In this document: positions 3,726 to 26,781 of the stretch, one piece after another
Layout of the letters: the number at the start of each line of letters is the position of its first letter
How positions within the stretch are numbered: the stretch's first letter is position 1
Position numbers and translations under genes: made by a program
Source: a bacterium
GTDB lineage: Bacteria; Campylobacterota; Campylobacteria; Campylobacterales; Sulfurimonadaceae
Length of the DNA stretch: 64,000 nucleotides
Direction of reading: 5' to 3'
NCBI GenBank assembly: GCA_018822665.1
Contig: JAHJJX010000014.1
Coordinates: 1-64,000, forward strand
Notes under the pieces: generated by a model
Told to the model about the DNA's origin: nothing
Databases searched by the model: none
The model's input: only the letters and a program-made list of their open reading frames with translations

Positions 3726-5051
3726 TCATCGTTCATGAAAAGCATTTTTTTGTGCTTTAAGAATTGGTTTGAAAATATAATCGAGCACTGTCTTTTTCCC
3801 TGTGACTATATCCACATTCGCAATCATACCGGGAATAATATAGTGCTTTTGAGCATCTTTTTCAAGATAGCTTGTTTTTGCTTCCAACTTAATAAGATAA
3901 TAACTTTCTCCCTTGTCATTCACCATTGAGTCGGCACTGATATGTTTAACATTTCCCTCAATATAACCATAAATGGTGTAATCGTATGCTGTAAATCTGA
4001 TTGTAGCCTTTTGGTCTGGATGAATAAAAGCAATGTCTGATGGGGTAATTTTTGCTTCGATAAGAAGGGTTTCATCTGTTGGAACTATCTCTAAGAGATT
4101 CATACCCGGTTTAATAACACCGCCGATAGTATTCACAAAAATCTGCTTAATCGTACCATTTACCGGGGAACGTACTTCAGTACGGGTAACTTGGTCTTGA
4201 AATGAATGTTGCACACTCTTCGTTCGTTCGAGTTGTGCAATAACTTTGGTATATTCTTGTTGTGCATTTTGCTGGTTATTAAGCCGTTCTTCGTTAATTT
4301 TATTTTCAATTTCTATAATAGCATTTGCCAATCTAGGCAAACTCGCTTCCGTACTTTGATACTCTCCAAGGAGTGTGCTCGCTTCACGTTTGAGTTTTAG
4401 AAAAGCTGTTTCAGGTTCAATCCCTTTTTTAACCAAAGGTTCTTTAATTTTAATTTCCTGAGAGATGAGAGCATGGCTATCTTTTAATGCACTTATTTTG
4501 TAACGGGCTTCATTCAATTCGCTTGCTCTTTGTTTTTTCTGCGAGATATAAATGTCAATACGATTTTTAAGCTGTTTCTGATTCGCCTGATAAAGCTCCA
4601 GTTCATTAAGCAGATATACTTTTGGAACTCCTTTATTATTTAAATCGATGCTAAAAGGCTTGTCCTGAGCTTCACTTTTAAGTCTAAGTGAACGCACATA
4701 AAGTTCATTGTATGTTGTTTGCGCTTCTTCAAGGGAACTAAAAGACTGTTTATTATCCAGCTTAATTAAAATATCATCATATCGGACTGTAGAGCCCTCG
4801 TTGACTAAAATTTCTTTAATAATTCCGCCTTCATAATTTTGAATAATTTGGGTTTTCCCAGAAGGAATAACTTTGCCCTGTCCTTGCACCAATTCATCAA
4901 TTTGAGTTACATTCGCCCAGAATAAAAAGAAGATGGTGACACCAAAGATAATCCACAGCAGTAATTTTTCCAAGGTGGAGGTTTTGAGCAAAAAGGCAGA
5001 AGCCTTGCTCGACATGAATTCAATTTCATTTGAGTTAAAATTTGTACTCAT
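3726..5051 (-). CDS. type I secretion adaptor, LapC/HlyD family
   Basis: This is the periplasmic adaptor that joins the inner-membrane ABC exporter to the TolC-like pore. Residues 1-28 are cytoplasmic, one membrane segment follows (about 29-48, LLLWIIFGVTIFFLFW), then a biotinyl-lipoyl-like hairpin (GKTQIIQNYEGGIIKEILVNEGSTV), a long coiled coil (about 95-275) and the HlyD beta-barrel domain with the family signature around RSPVNGTIKQIFV and GGVIKPGMNLLEIVP. The length of 441 residues is typical. It begins 4 bases after the exporter gene, which implies one operon. The symbol lapC would fit by role. Confidence 0.93.
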   Translation of the reverse strand: MSTNFNSNEIEFMSSKASAFLLKTSTLEKLLLWIIFGVTIFFLFWANVTQIDELVQGQGKVIPSGKTQIIQNYEGGIIKEILVNEGSTVRYDDILIKLDNKQSFSSLEEAQTTYNELYVRSLRLKSEAQDKPFSIDLNNKGVPKVYLLNELELYQANQKQLKNRIDIYISQKKQRASELNEARYKISALKDSHALISQEIKIKEPLVKKGIEPETAFLKLKREASTLLGEYQSTEASLPRLANAIIEIENKINEERLNNQQNAQQEYTKVIAQLERTKSVQHSFQDQVTRTEVRSPVNGTIKQIFVNTIGGVIKPGMNLLEIVPTDETLLIEAKITPSDIAFIHPDQKATIRFTAYDYTIYGYIEGNVKHISADSMVNDKGESYYLIKLEAKTSYLEKDAQKHYIIPGMIANVDIVTGKKTVLDYIFKPILKAQKNAFHER

Positions 5052-10585: not shown

Positions 10586-12646
10586 TTAGATTTCGACGTC
10601 CGTATCGATTTCAAAATCTAAATCTTCAATACCGCCCTCTTCAAAGCCACCTTCATTGTATTCTGGGTTAATACTCTCATTGCCACTCTGGGCTGGGCTT
10701 TGTGATGCTTCACCGACTGAGCCTGTGTCAATTATTTCATCATCGTCACTGAGTCCGAGTGAAACTTTTTCATCACCTGCATCCGAAGTATCTCTATCAT
10801 CTACTTGATCATTTTCCCCTCTGCTATCATCATGTTCACCATCACGACCCTCATCACCATCATTTCCATTATCATCTTCACCATGCTGATGTTGATTCCC
10901 CTGCCCATTGTTGTCATCATCATTGTCGTTGTCGTTGTCGTTGTCAGAATCCGTGTCAGTGTCAGTGTCTGAATCTGTATCGGAATCCGTGTCTGTGTCG
11001 GAATCATTGTCATTGTCATTGTCATTGTCGTTGTCATTGTCGTTGTCATTGTCATTGTCATTGTCGTTGTCGTTGTCATTGTCGTTGTCATTGTCATTGT
11101 CATTGTCATTGTCATTGTCATTGTCATTGTCATTGTCAGTGTCTGAATCCGTGTCTGAGTCTGAGTCAGAATCCGTGTCCGTGTCCGTGTCCGTGTCAGT
11201 GTCTGTGTCTGTGTCAGAATCTGTGTCCGTGTCCGTGTCCGTGTCAGTGTCTGTGTCTGTGTCAGAATCTGAATCTGAATCTATATCGGAATCAGTGTCA
11301 GTGTCAGTGTCTGTGTCGGAGTCAGTGTCAGTGTCTGTGTCGGAATCTGTATCGGAATCATTGTCATTGTCATTGTCATTGTCATTGTCATTGTCATTGT
11401 CATTGTCATTGTCATTGTCTGTGTCTGAGTCTGAATCTGTGTCTGTGTCGGAATCTGAGTCAGAATCCGTGTCAGAATCTGTGTCTGTGTCTGTGTCTGT
11501 GTCTGAATCCGTGTCTGAATCCGTGTCTGTGTCAGTATCAGTATCAGTGTCAGTGTCGGAATCCGTATCTGTGTCAGTGTCTGAGTCTGAGTCTGAGTCT
11601 GAATCTGTGTCTGTGTCTGAGTCTGAATCAGTGTCTGTGTCGGAATCTGAGTCTGAATCCGTGTCAGTGTCTGAATCCGTGTCTGTGTCTGTGTCAGAAT
11701 CTGTATCGGAATCCGTATCTGTGTCAGTGTCTGAGTCTGAGTCTGAATCCGTGTCAGTGTCGGAATCTGAGTCAGAATCCGTGTCAGAATCTGTGTCAGT
11801 GTCAGTGTCGGAATCAGTGTCTGTGTCGGAATCTGAGTCTGAATCCGTGTCAGTGTCTGAATCCGTGTCTGTGTCTGTGTCGGAATCCGTATCTGTGTCT
11901 GAGTCTGAGTCTGAATCTGTGTCGGAATCCGTATCTGTGTCAGTGTCTGAGTCTGAGTCTGAATCTGAGTCTGAGTCTGAATCCGTGTCAGTGTCTGAGT
12001 CTGAGTCTGAATCCGTGTCTGTGTCGGAATCTGAGTCAGAATCCGTGTCAGTGTCTGTGTCTGAATCTGTATCGGAATCCGTGTCAGCGTCTGTGTCAGT
12101 GTCTGAGTCAGAATCCGTGTCAGTGTCAGTGTCTGTATCCGTATCACTGTCGGAATCTGAATCACCTACTTCCCCAGATACTTCCTCTATATTTGTGATA
12201 TCCGAATCCGTGCCATGCTCAAAATCACTTTGTGTTGCCCAAATATTGGTATCATCGGCAGCTCTCGTTCGGCTTGTGAAATGTCCCCCTACAGCACCGG
12301 CGCCCCCTGAAGCTTCACCGGCAGCCGTAGCGGCAAGATCATCTAAGTTACCGCCGTTCATCAAAAATTGCTCAAGTGAATCAGAATTCATGGTGACATC
12401 TTCAACCAAAAATGCATTTTGAACGCTTTCGTCAAGCGTAAGCACATCACCAGCCTGCAACACTAAAAGATTAGCTTCAACCACACTTCCTGGCGTTTGC
12501 ACTAAAATATGTACATCACCATCAATCACAACTACTTTTTCACCTTCTTGAATAACATCACCTTGACTCAATACCCTCTTATTTCCATCCGAATCGATTA
12601 CGATTGCGTGTCCGGTAAGTACCTGAACAATACTTGTCGCTGCCAT
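10586..12646 (-). CDS. LapA-like retention-module surface protein with Asp-Ser/Thr/Asn repeats
   Basis: Residues 1-105 match the retention module that holds LapA-type adhesins in the outer-membrane pore ([42 protein letters not shown]). A TAAG site for LapG cleavage lies at residues 107-110, followed by a Gly/Ala-rich linker. Residues 162-578 are almost only D-S, D-T and D-N dipeptides. The last 108 residues are acidic and of mixed composition, ending EIDTDVEI, presumably the secretion signal. There are no RTX nonapeptides, Ig-like domains or lectin domains. It is secreted by the neighbouring type I system. With about half of the repeat being Asp, it should be extremely negative and may bind calcium. 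A good ribosome site (AAAGGA) precedes ATG 12646. The repeat number could be wrong if the assembly collapsed it. Confidence 0.9.
11006..11137 (-). repeat. hexamer microsatellite encoding (DN)22
   Basis: Twenty-two consecutive six-base units, ATTGTC or GTTGTC on the plus strand, encode an uninterrupted Asp-Asn block. Slippage by whole units would change protein length without a frameshift. Confidence 0.9.
11360..11419 (-). repeat. perfect hexamer microsatellite encoding (DN)10
   Basis: Ten identical ATTGTC units (plus strand) stand between Asp-Ser/Thr stretches. This is the most regular part of the tract and the likeliest place for length variation. Confidence 0.92.
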
Positions 12647-24300: not shown

Positions 24301-26187
24301 ATGAGCAAAGTAATAGGTATAGATTTAGGAACAACAAATTCATGTGTAGCAGTATATGAAGGGGGAGAAGCAAAAATTATCCCAAATAAAGAGGGTAAAA
24401 ATACAACTCCTTCAGTAGTTGCGTTTACAGACAAGGGTGATGTTCTTGTTGGTGATCCGGCTAAGCGTCAGGCAATAACAAATCCGAACAAGACAATCTC
24501 TTCTATTAAGAGAATTATGGGTCTTATGATGAGTGAAGAAAATGCTAAAGCGGCACACGATAAAGTAACGTATAACATCGTAGACAAAGACGGAATGGCA
24601 GCGGTTGACGTAGCCGGAAAAATTTATACTCCACAAGAAATTTCGGCAAAAATTCTTTCAAAATTAAAAGAAGATGCGGAAGCTTACTTAGGTTCAAGCG
24701 TAACTGACGCAGTAATTACCGTTCCGGCATACTTTAACGATGCGCAAAGAAAAGCTACAAAAGATGCAGGTACAATCGCAGGTCTTAATGTTCTTCGTAT
24801 TATTAATGAGCCGACGGCTTCTGCTTTGGCGTATGGACTAGACAGTAAAAATGATGAGAATGTAATTGTCTATGACTTGGGCGGCGGGACATTTGACGTT
24901 ACTGTTTTAGAAATCAGCGATGGCACTTTTGAAGTTCTTTCGACGGATGGTAATGCATTTTTAGGTGGAGATGATTTTGACAATAAAATCGTTGATTATC
25001 TAAACGCAGAGTTCAAAAGCACACACGGGATAGACCTTAAAAATGATAAAATGGCTCTTCAACGTCTTAAAGATGCTGCTGAAAACGCTAAAAAAGAGCT
25101 TTCAAGCTCAACAGAAACAGAGATTAACTTACCGTTCATTACGATGACAGAAGCTGGTCCACAGCACTTGGTAATTAAACTTACTCGTGCAAAATTTGAG
25201 GGGATGATAGAGTCTTTAATCAAAGAAACTATTGACCATATCAAAACGGCAATGAAAGAATCAGGTTTATCAAACAACGATATCAAAGAGATTATCATGG
25301 TTGGAGGTTCTATCCGCGTTCCAAAAGCTCAAGAGATGGTTTCTGCTTATTTTGGCGGAAAAACACTAAACAAAAGCGTAAATCCAGATGAAGTTGTTGC
25401 TGCCGGCGCTGCTATTCAAGGTGGTGTTTTAAGAGGAGATGTTAAAGATGTTCTTCTTTTAGACGTTACTCCATTGTCTCTTGGAATTGAAACTTTAGGC
25501 GGAGTTGCTACAAAAATCATCGAAAAAGGCACAACAATTCCTGTTAAGAAATCTCAAATCTTTTCAACTGCAGAAGACAACCAGCCGGCTGTTAGCATTT
25601 CAGTTGTTCAAGGTGAAAGAGAATTTGCAAAAGACAATAAATCTTTAGGTCTGTTTGAACTTGGAAATATTGCAGCGGCTCCAAGAGGTGTACCTCAAAT
25701 TGAAGTAACTTTTGATATTGATGCCAACGGAATCTTAACTGTCAGCTCAACCGACAAAGGTACAGGCAAATCTCAGTCAATCACAATTAGCGGTTCGTCA
25801 GGCCTAAGCGAAGAAGAGATTAACAAAATGGTTCAAGATGCTGAGGCACACAAAGCCGAAGATGGCAAAAGAAAGGCCTTAGTTGACCTTAAAAACCAAG
25901 CAGATGCACTTATAGCTCAAACAGAAAAATCTTTAACGGAGATGGGCGATAAAATCGAAGCGGATGAAAAAGCGAAAATTGAAGCTGCTATCTCTGATTT
26001 AAAAGCAACACTCAAAGATGCAAATGCAACAAAAGAACAAATTGAAGCGAAAGTAAAAACTTTAACAGAAGCCTCTCATAAAATGGCAGAGCAGATGTAC
26101 AAAAAAGAAGAAGGCGGCGAAGCCGGCCAAGCAGATACTAAAAAGAAAAAAGAAGAAGACGACGTAATAGATGCCGAAATAGAGTAA
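24301..26187 (+). CDS. dnaK: chaperone DnaK (Hsp70)
   Basis: ATP-driven folding chaperone working with GrpE and DnaJ. All Hsp70 signatures are present: [16 protein letters not shown] at the N-terminus, [14 protein letters not shown] at about 197-210 and [17 protein letters not shown] at about 330 (Ile where most have Thr). The substrate domain and a lid with an acidic tail ([15 protein letters not shown]) follow. At 628 residues it is normal. Ribosome site AAGGAA precedes ATG. A strong inverted repeat follows the stop. Confidence 0.98.
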
Positions 26188-26231
26188 TCTTCTGCCTTGC
26201 TGACGTGCGCGGCAAGCGTAGCGCGGCAAAC

Positions 26232-26270
26232 ATTCTTTGGCATGTGGAAAAATTCCACATGCCAAAGAAT
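26232..26270. terminator. 18-bp inverted repeat built from two GGCATGTGGAA words
   Basis: ATTCTTTGGCATGTGGAA (26232-26249), a three-base AAA loop and its exact complement (26253-26270) form a perfect 18-bp stem between dnaK and the convergent nosL-like gene. It can act as a two-way terminator. The arms contain the repeated 11-base word at 26239-26249 and 26253-26263. Confidence 0.75.
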
Positions 26271-26277
26271 TTACAAG

Positions 26278-26781
26278 TTATTTATAATGTTTAAAATCTT
26301 CTTTAGCTTTTTCCAAAGCTCCATTAAAATCCATTATTTCTCCGCCGTTTTTAGTTTGAAACTTCTTTGCATCTTCTAAATTTAAAAATGCATATTTACT
26401 CACTCTGCTCATAGTACCGCGAATTTTACTGCCTACTACATAATGCGCATCAGATACAGGGATAAGCTTCAAAGATACCACATCCACTACTTTTGGATTT
26501 TTAAGGGTAATTTCATTTCCTAAATGTTCTTCCAAACAATGGATAGAACAATACTGAAAATGGGTTCCTTCATGTTCTGCAATATGAGAAGTTTTATAAA
26601 ATTTTACTAAATCCATTCCACATCTGCTACAAGAGCCTTTATTCTTACCTTTTTGAACCAAGGTAGCATCTTTTTCTTCAACAGACTGAAAAATTTTTGA
26701 TGAACTCATTTCTTTATTCGATTGCATAGCACAACCGCCTATAAGCAAACTCAGCACAATCACACTGATTATTTTCAACAT
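26278..26781 (-). CDS. NosL-family lipoprotein
   Basis: NosL proteins are periplasmic copper-binding lipoproteins that help assemble the copper sites of nitrous oxide reductase; NosL-like relatives occur elsewhere. A lipobox (SLLIGGC, Cys17) is visible, then CSRCGM (a CxxCGM metal site) and YCSIHCLEEH, both typical. No nos genes are in the window, so the partner is unknown. It is preceded by AAGGAAA and separated from the convergent dnaK by the inverted-repeat terminator. Confidence 0.82.
   Translation of the reverse strand: MLKIISVIVLSLLIGGCAMQSNKEMSSSKIFQSVEEKDATLVQKGKNKGSCSRCGMDLVKFYKTSHIAEHEGTHFQYCSIHCLEEHLGNEITLKNPKVVDVVSLKLIPVSDAHYVVGSKIRGTMSRVSKYAFLNLEDAKKFQTKNGGEIMDFNGALEKAKEDFKHYK

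Follow-up and report, generated by a model that had tools for sequence, protein, structure and literature searches.

In the 64,000-nucleotide stretch of DNA analyzed here (the window), two inverted copies of an 11-bp word, GGCATGTGGAA, form a perfect stem between the convergent genes for dnaK and a NosL-domain protein. The pair can fold into a hairpin, inverted pairs of this word occur in excess past stop codons, and most relatives carry a hairpin in the same place after dnaK. With moderate confidence, on grounds of sequence comparison, we interpret the word as being of the uptake type and its inverted pair as having been recruited to form an RNA hairpin at the common 3′ end of the dnaK and nosL-like transcripts.

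Structure of the inverted repeat between dnaK and the nosL-like gene

Profile matches assigned positions 24301-26187 of the plus strand to dnaK (HSP70; PF00012, 1.6e-246) and positions 26278-26781 of the minus strand to a NosL-domain protein gene (PF05573, 1.3e-12), and the two genes converge on a gap of 90 bp. DnaK relatives at 92-95% amino-acid identity were nearly all labelled Sulfurimonas. The window sequence contained a perfect inverted repeat at 26232-26270 with 18 of 18 pairs matched, in which, by both sequence and RNA fold, the left arm ATTCTTTGGCATGTGGAA (26232-26249, plus strand) and its exact reverse complement (26253-26270, minus strand) flank an AAA loop of three bases (26250-26252, on no particular strand). 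The stem begins 44 bases past the dnaK stop codon and lies 7 bases from that of the nosL-like gene. The genome-wide word list placed the two copies of GGCATGTGGAA at 26239-26249 (plus) and 26253-26263 (minus). An exact 17-mer was present on both strands (26233-26249 and 26253-26269), and its matches with at most three mismatches numbered six in the window versus 0.40 expected from shuffles.

RNA folding of 26185-26285 yielded -44.2 kcal/mol (z = -6.7), with 0 shuffles equally good. The geometry given in the initial annotation, an 18-bp stem with a 3-base loop between convergent dnaK and nosL-like genes, was exact. The fold of the gap consisted of the word-pair stem and a second predicted, GC-rich hairpin on the plus strand (26197-26229), which follows the dnaK stop codon, precedes the word pair, and has a sequence that was not repeated in the other loci compared or in viral contigs. 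An Rfam search of the palindrome returned only miRNA matches at chance level. Elsewhere, the commonest 9-12-mers of the window were coding-strand repeats (GTGTCAGTGTC, TTGTCATTGTC, and similar) at 10586-12646 and in neighbouring repeats, and the repeat-rich product of that region is probably a surface protein.

Abundance, sequence limits, and distribution of the word

The host genome (G000), of Sulfurimonas type, comprises 2,507,095 bases in 44 contigs and contained 662 copies of GGCATGTGGAA (328 plus, 334 minus), or one per 3.8 kb, versus a single copy of the reversed-word control. A 464-kb sample of this genome held 107 perfect copies versus 0-3 copies for each single change at positions 1-8, whereas position 11 accepted any base and position 9 accepted C; the latter form, GGCATGTGCAA (position 9 G to C; 17 copies), was the sole core variant above chance in this sample. 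The flanks in the same sample showed a short preference, YTT before and AAWT after the word, and none further. A mobile element was rejected as the source of the word, as the matches had only the word in common and their flanks were unconserved past approximately four bases.

The word was abundant in seven further genomes of the genus (318-946 copies each). Among 135 genus genomes, 8 contained more than 300 copies, about ten contained 30-150, and most contained 0-7; outside the genus, none of 368 genomes of the same order exceeded 5 copies. The carriers were scattered on the dnaK tree, with 5 changes. The word also occurred in head-to-tail arrays, of 17-18 bp period and up to about 16 units, in the host genome (G000:C20:449079-449160 and G000:C32:13358-13420) and in two relatives (G034:C18:43138-43416, G034:C8:300-434, and G031:C13/C86/C94).

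Genomic position of the word and of its inverted pairs

Gene calls in the sampled stretches were made with our own simple and crude caller, which was checked against the open reading frame list of the window. Of the 107 copies in the 464-kb sample, 75 lay inside genes, 39 with the gene direction and 36 opposite to it. Density in the host genome was highest in convergent gaps (3.9 copies per kb), followed by tandem gaps (0.85), divergent gaps (0.27), and genes (0.17), and the corresponding values pooled over samples of five relatives were 2.8, 2.0, 1.2, and 0.39, the two sets agreeing that the word is densest in convergent gaps and sparsest in genes. The longest word-free stretch (G000:C20:179969-209663; samples L119-L121) extended over 29.7 kb of low GC content with small genes of unknown kind, and is likely a genomic island, a single island having been looked at.

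The initial annotation had proposed searching the genome for further inverted pairs, their absence counting against its reading, and this search recovered about 42 in the host genome, together with 17-100 in each of seven relatives, so that the dnaK pair is one of many. Those of the host genome comprised 21 arranged tail-to-tail, with GGAA on the inside, and 21 listed as head-to-head, of which two rows derive from one triple site. With a gap of at most 12 bp, inverted pairs in the host genome numbered 37 versus about 1.1 expected under random placement of an equal number of words, and same-direction pairs amounted to 10 matches at about 5 sites, several of which were tandem arrays. Over the eight genomes, inverted pairs outnumbered same-direction pairs about 2.6-fold (451 versus 174) and used the two orientations equally (214 versus 237), the tail-to-tail search in the relatives having admitted shorter gaps. 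In G031, 38 of 43 pairs were found at gene 3′ ends, with a median distance of 15.5 bases from the stop codon, and viral contigs contained no paired words. Because inverted pairs outnumber same-direction pairs and cluster after stop codons, the inverted layout past stop codons is favoured.

Relation of the pairs to transcription termination

Paired uptake sequences in Neisseria have been taken as terminators by Kingsford and colleagues, based on T-tails and a strong +- bias in pair orientation (PMC1852404). An ordinary Rho-independent, bidirectional terminator of this type, made of uptake sequences, is accordingly the first alternative to be weighed for the dnaK pair, and the strong GC-cored hairpin, the convergent genes, the 3′ enrichment, and the inverted excess would all agree with it, as would the precedent in Neisseria and Pasteurellaceae (PMC1852404). 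Nevertheless, the stem is followed by TTACAAGTTATT on the plus strand and by GTTTGCCGCG / GTTTGCCG on the minus strand, neither of which is T-rich, and T content after the pairs corresponded to background in two genomes, being at or below background in the host genome and 0.33-0.39 versus 0.31 in G031. The absence of an orientation preference is likewise at odds with such a terminator, and a consensus terminator scan did not call the dnaK-nosL site. Of the features considered by Kingsford and colleagues, the T-tail and the orientation bias were thus lacking in Sulfurimonas, and the enrichment in convergent gaps and the scarcity of same-direction pairs were present. We therefore regard this alternative as unlikely. 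By our own criteria, canonical hairpin-plus-T terminators were scarce in the host genome as a whole (9 of 122 apparent transcription-unit ends).

The designation of the pair as the dnaK terminator in the initial annotation is supported only in so far as a strong hairpin is located at the 3′ end, where most relatives have a hairpin too; it finds no backing in a T-tail or in the terminator scan. Under our preferred reading, two inverted copies of GGCATGTGGAA, a putative uptake sequence of this Sulfurimonas lineage, would have been co-opted as a 3′-end hairpin. This hairpin could work in RNA as a T-tail-less or Rho-assisted terminator; alternatively, it could block 3′ exonucleases and thereby fix mRNA ends on both strands. 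Either a terminator of this kind or a 3′ exonuclease barrier is possible at the dnaK hairpin.

Conservation of the hairpin after dnaK

Comparison of the region 3′ of dnaK among relatives bears on whether the hairpin has any role in RNA. A neutral origin would hold that words collect in unconstrained gaps, where palindrome-forming mutation turns them into pairs, and that the resulting hairpin has no RNA role. Gaps at 3′ ends are the least constrained sites, and the stem is perfect for 7 bp past each word at dnaK and for 10 bp past the word in one other pair, as template-switch repair would yield. Such an origin, however, predicts equal numbers of same-direction pairs, which were 2.6 times rarer, and it does not account for unrelated hairpins at the same place in most word-less relatives; we judge it quite improbable.

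Specifically, the 80-base region 3′ of dnaK folded with z < -2 in 32 of 41 word-less family relatives (mean -3.3), and these stems were unrelated in sequence. In all five relatives whose dnaK 3′ region contained either the word or one of its dialects, the hairpin was the paired word; hairpins after dnaK consisted of the word in word-carrying genomes only. The pair was tail-to-tail in L033 and head-to-head in L038 (dialect GGCATGTGAA), L039, L041, and L082, and two of the arrangements differ between species with a common nosL neighbour. The hairpin structure thus predates its sequence, and the word has been put into the structure more than once, or rearranged. Because most word-less relatives have an unrelated hairpin at the same place, the dnaK-end hairpin is probably functional, with the word recruited into it. 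The retention of the hairpin position with differing sequences constitutes the best evidence that the hairpin has a role.

Strand balance and the nature of the word

The word might instead be another kind of repeated site, such as a Chi, FtsK-orienting, nucleoid, or regulator site, co-opted into hairpins in the same way, and its frequency in the genome suits several such systems. Chi and FtsK-orienting sites are strand-biased, and regulator sites are found preferentially at promoters. In one contig, 400 kb contained 70 plus and 64 minus copies, balanced between strands in each 50-kb block despite varying skew and gene direction, and the total counts in G031 and G034 were likewise balanced between strands. 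Because the copies are strand-balanced, identity of the word with KOPS or Chi was rejected; its rarity in divergent gaps argues against a regulator site, and its patchy spread with letter-level dialects in one genus fits uptake words better, which leaves this explanation doubtful at best.

We consider it likely that the word is a DNA uptake sequence, and its primary role would be recognition of own-species DNA in natural transformation. The host genome encodes ComEC, two DprA-family genes, and a GspD-/GspE-/GspF-/GspG-type locus with pseudopilins. Of 79 good genomes of the genus, 78 have ComEC, with or without the word, and the ComEC and DprA profiles match even E. coli. Because word-less relatives and E. 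coli also have such genes, competence genes do not discriminate; they are needed for, and not diagnostic of, an uptake word. In G132 (99% complete), about 100 word copies were found with no ComEC match, and this single case is perhaps a lineage that has lost competence and in which the word is decaying. The initial annotation had suggested that the pair supports the uptake idea independently of the count; uptake sequences are indeed known to be accompanied by pairs at 3′ ends, but what the pair attests is use as a hairpin and not uptake.

Dialects of the word at the level of individual letters were observed (GGCATGTGGGA, GGCATGTGAA, and GCATGTGGAA; L167 and L168 of G054, L038 near 4879-4920, and L041 near 4894-4935). 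An unrelated second word, YTGCGTGAGR (counted as TGCGTGAGA), reached 230-302 copies in seven genomes (G012, G017, G036, G062, G079, G081, and G094; samples L159, L160, L193, L194, L200, and L205) versus about 10 in controls, and 115 kb of sequence contained just a single inverted pair of it, a loose one. Samples of G015 and G002 (L157, L158, L198, and L202) contained the over-represented palindromes TCTACATGTAGA and TTTACATGTAAA. The dialects, the second word, the ComEC, DprA, and Gsp genes, and the word-free island would all be compatible with uptake dialects.

Comparison with known uptake-sequence systems

In the literature consulted, uptake sequences are described for two families, Neisseriaceae and Pasteurellaceae. 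Our search of the open-access literature found none tied to Sulfurimonas or Campylobacterota, and a search with the word itself returned only primers. We lean, if only slightly, toward the wider proposal that Sulfurimonas has an independent uptake system with dialects (GGCATGTGGAA, GGCATGTGGGA, GGCATGTGAA, and possibly YTGCGTGAGR in seven species) and with T-tail-less 3′ hairpins.

Transformation in Campylobacter and Helicobacter resembles that predicted here in that it belongs to the same phylum and involves ComEC-, DprA-, and secretion/pilus-type machinery. DNA uptake in these genera is not known to require a repeated word, and Campylobacter discriminates DNA by methylation; no matching word was found among the 368 genomes of the order outside Sulfurimonas.

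The uptake sequences of Haemophilus and other Pasteurellaceae (PMC1852404) are, like the Sulfurimonas word, dense and short and form some inverted pairs after genes, whereas the Sulfurimonas word has a short flank preference in place of a long A/T-rich 3′ extension and lacks adenine tails. The DNA uptake sequences of Neisseria (PMC1852404, PMC2397512, PMC3630211) likewise comprise hundreds of words of 10-12 bp divided equally between strands, with inverted pairs enriched in convergent gaps, rarer same-direction close pairs, and species dialects. In contrast, the Sulfurimonas word is unrelated in sequence, belongs to another phylum, shows neither +- preference nor T-tail, and has an uptake role that is predicted.

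If the proposal is true, Campylobacterota, a free-living chemolithotrophic phylum, would provide a third, independent case of an uptake-sequence system, through which the reasons for the evolution of such words, their reading by receptors, and the isolation of species by dialects could be tested comparatively. Moreover, the T-tail-less, orientation-neutral pairs of Sulfurimonas would separate the co-option of a word as a hairpin from the T-tail that, in Neisseria, is given by the word's own flanks.
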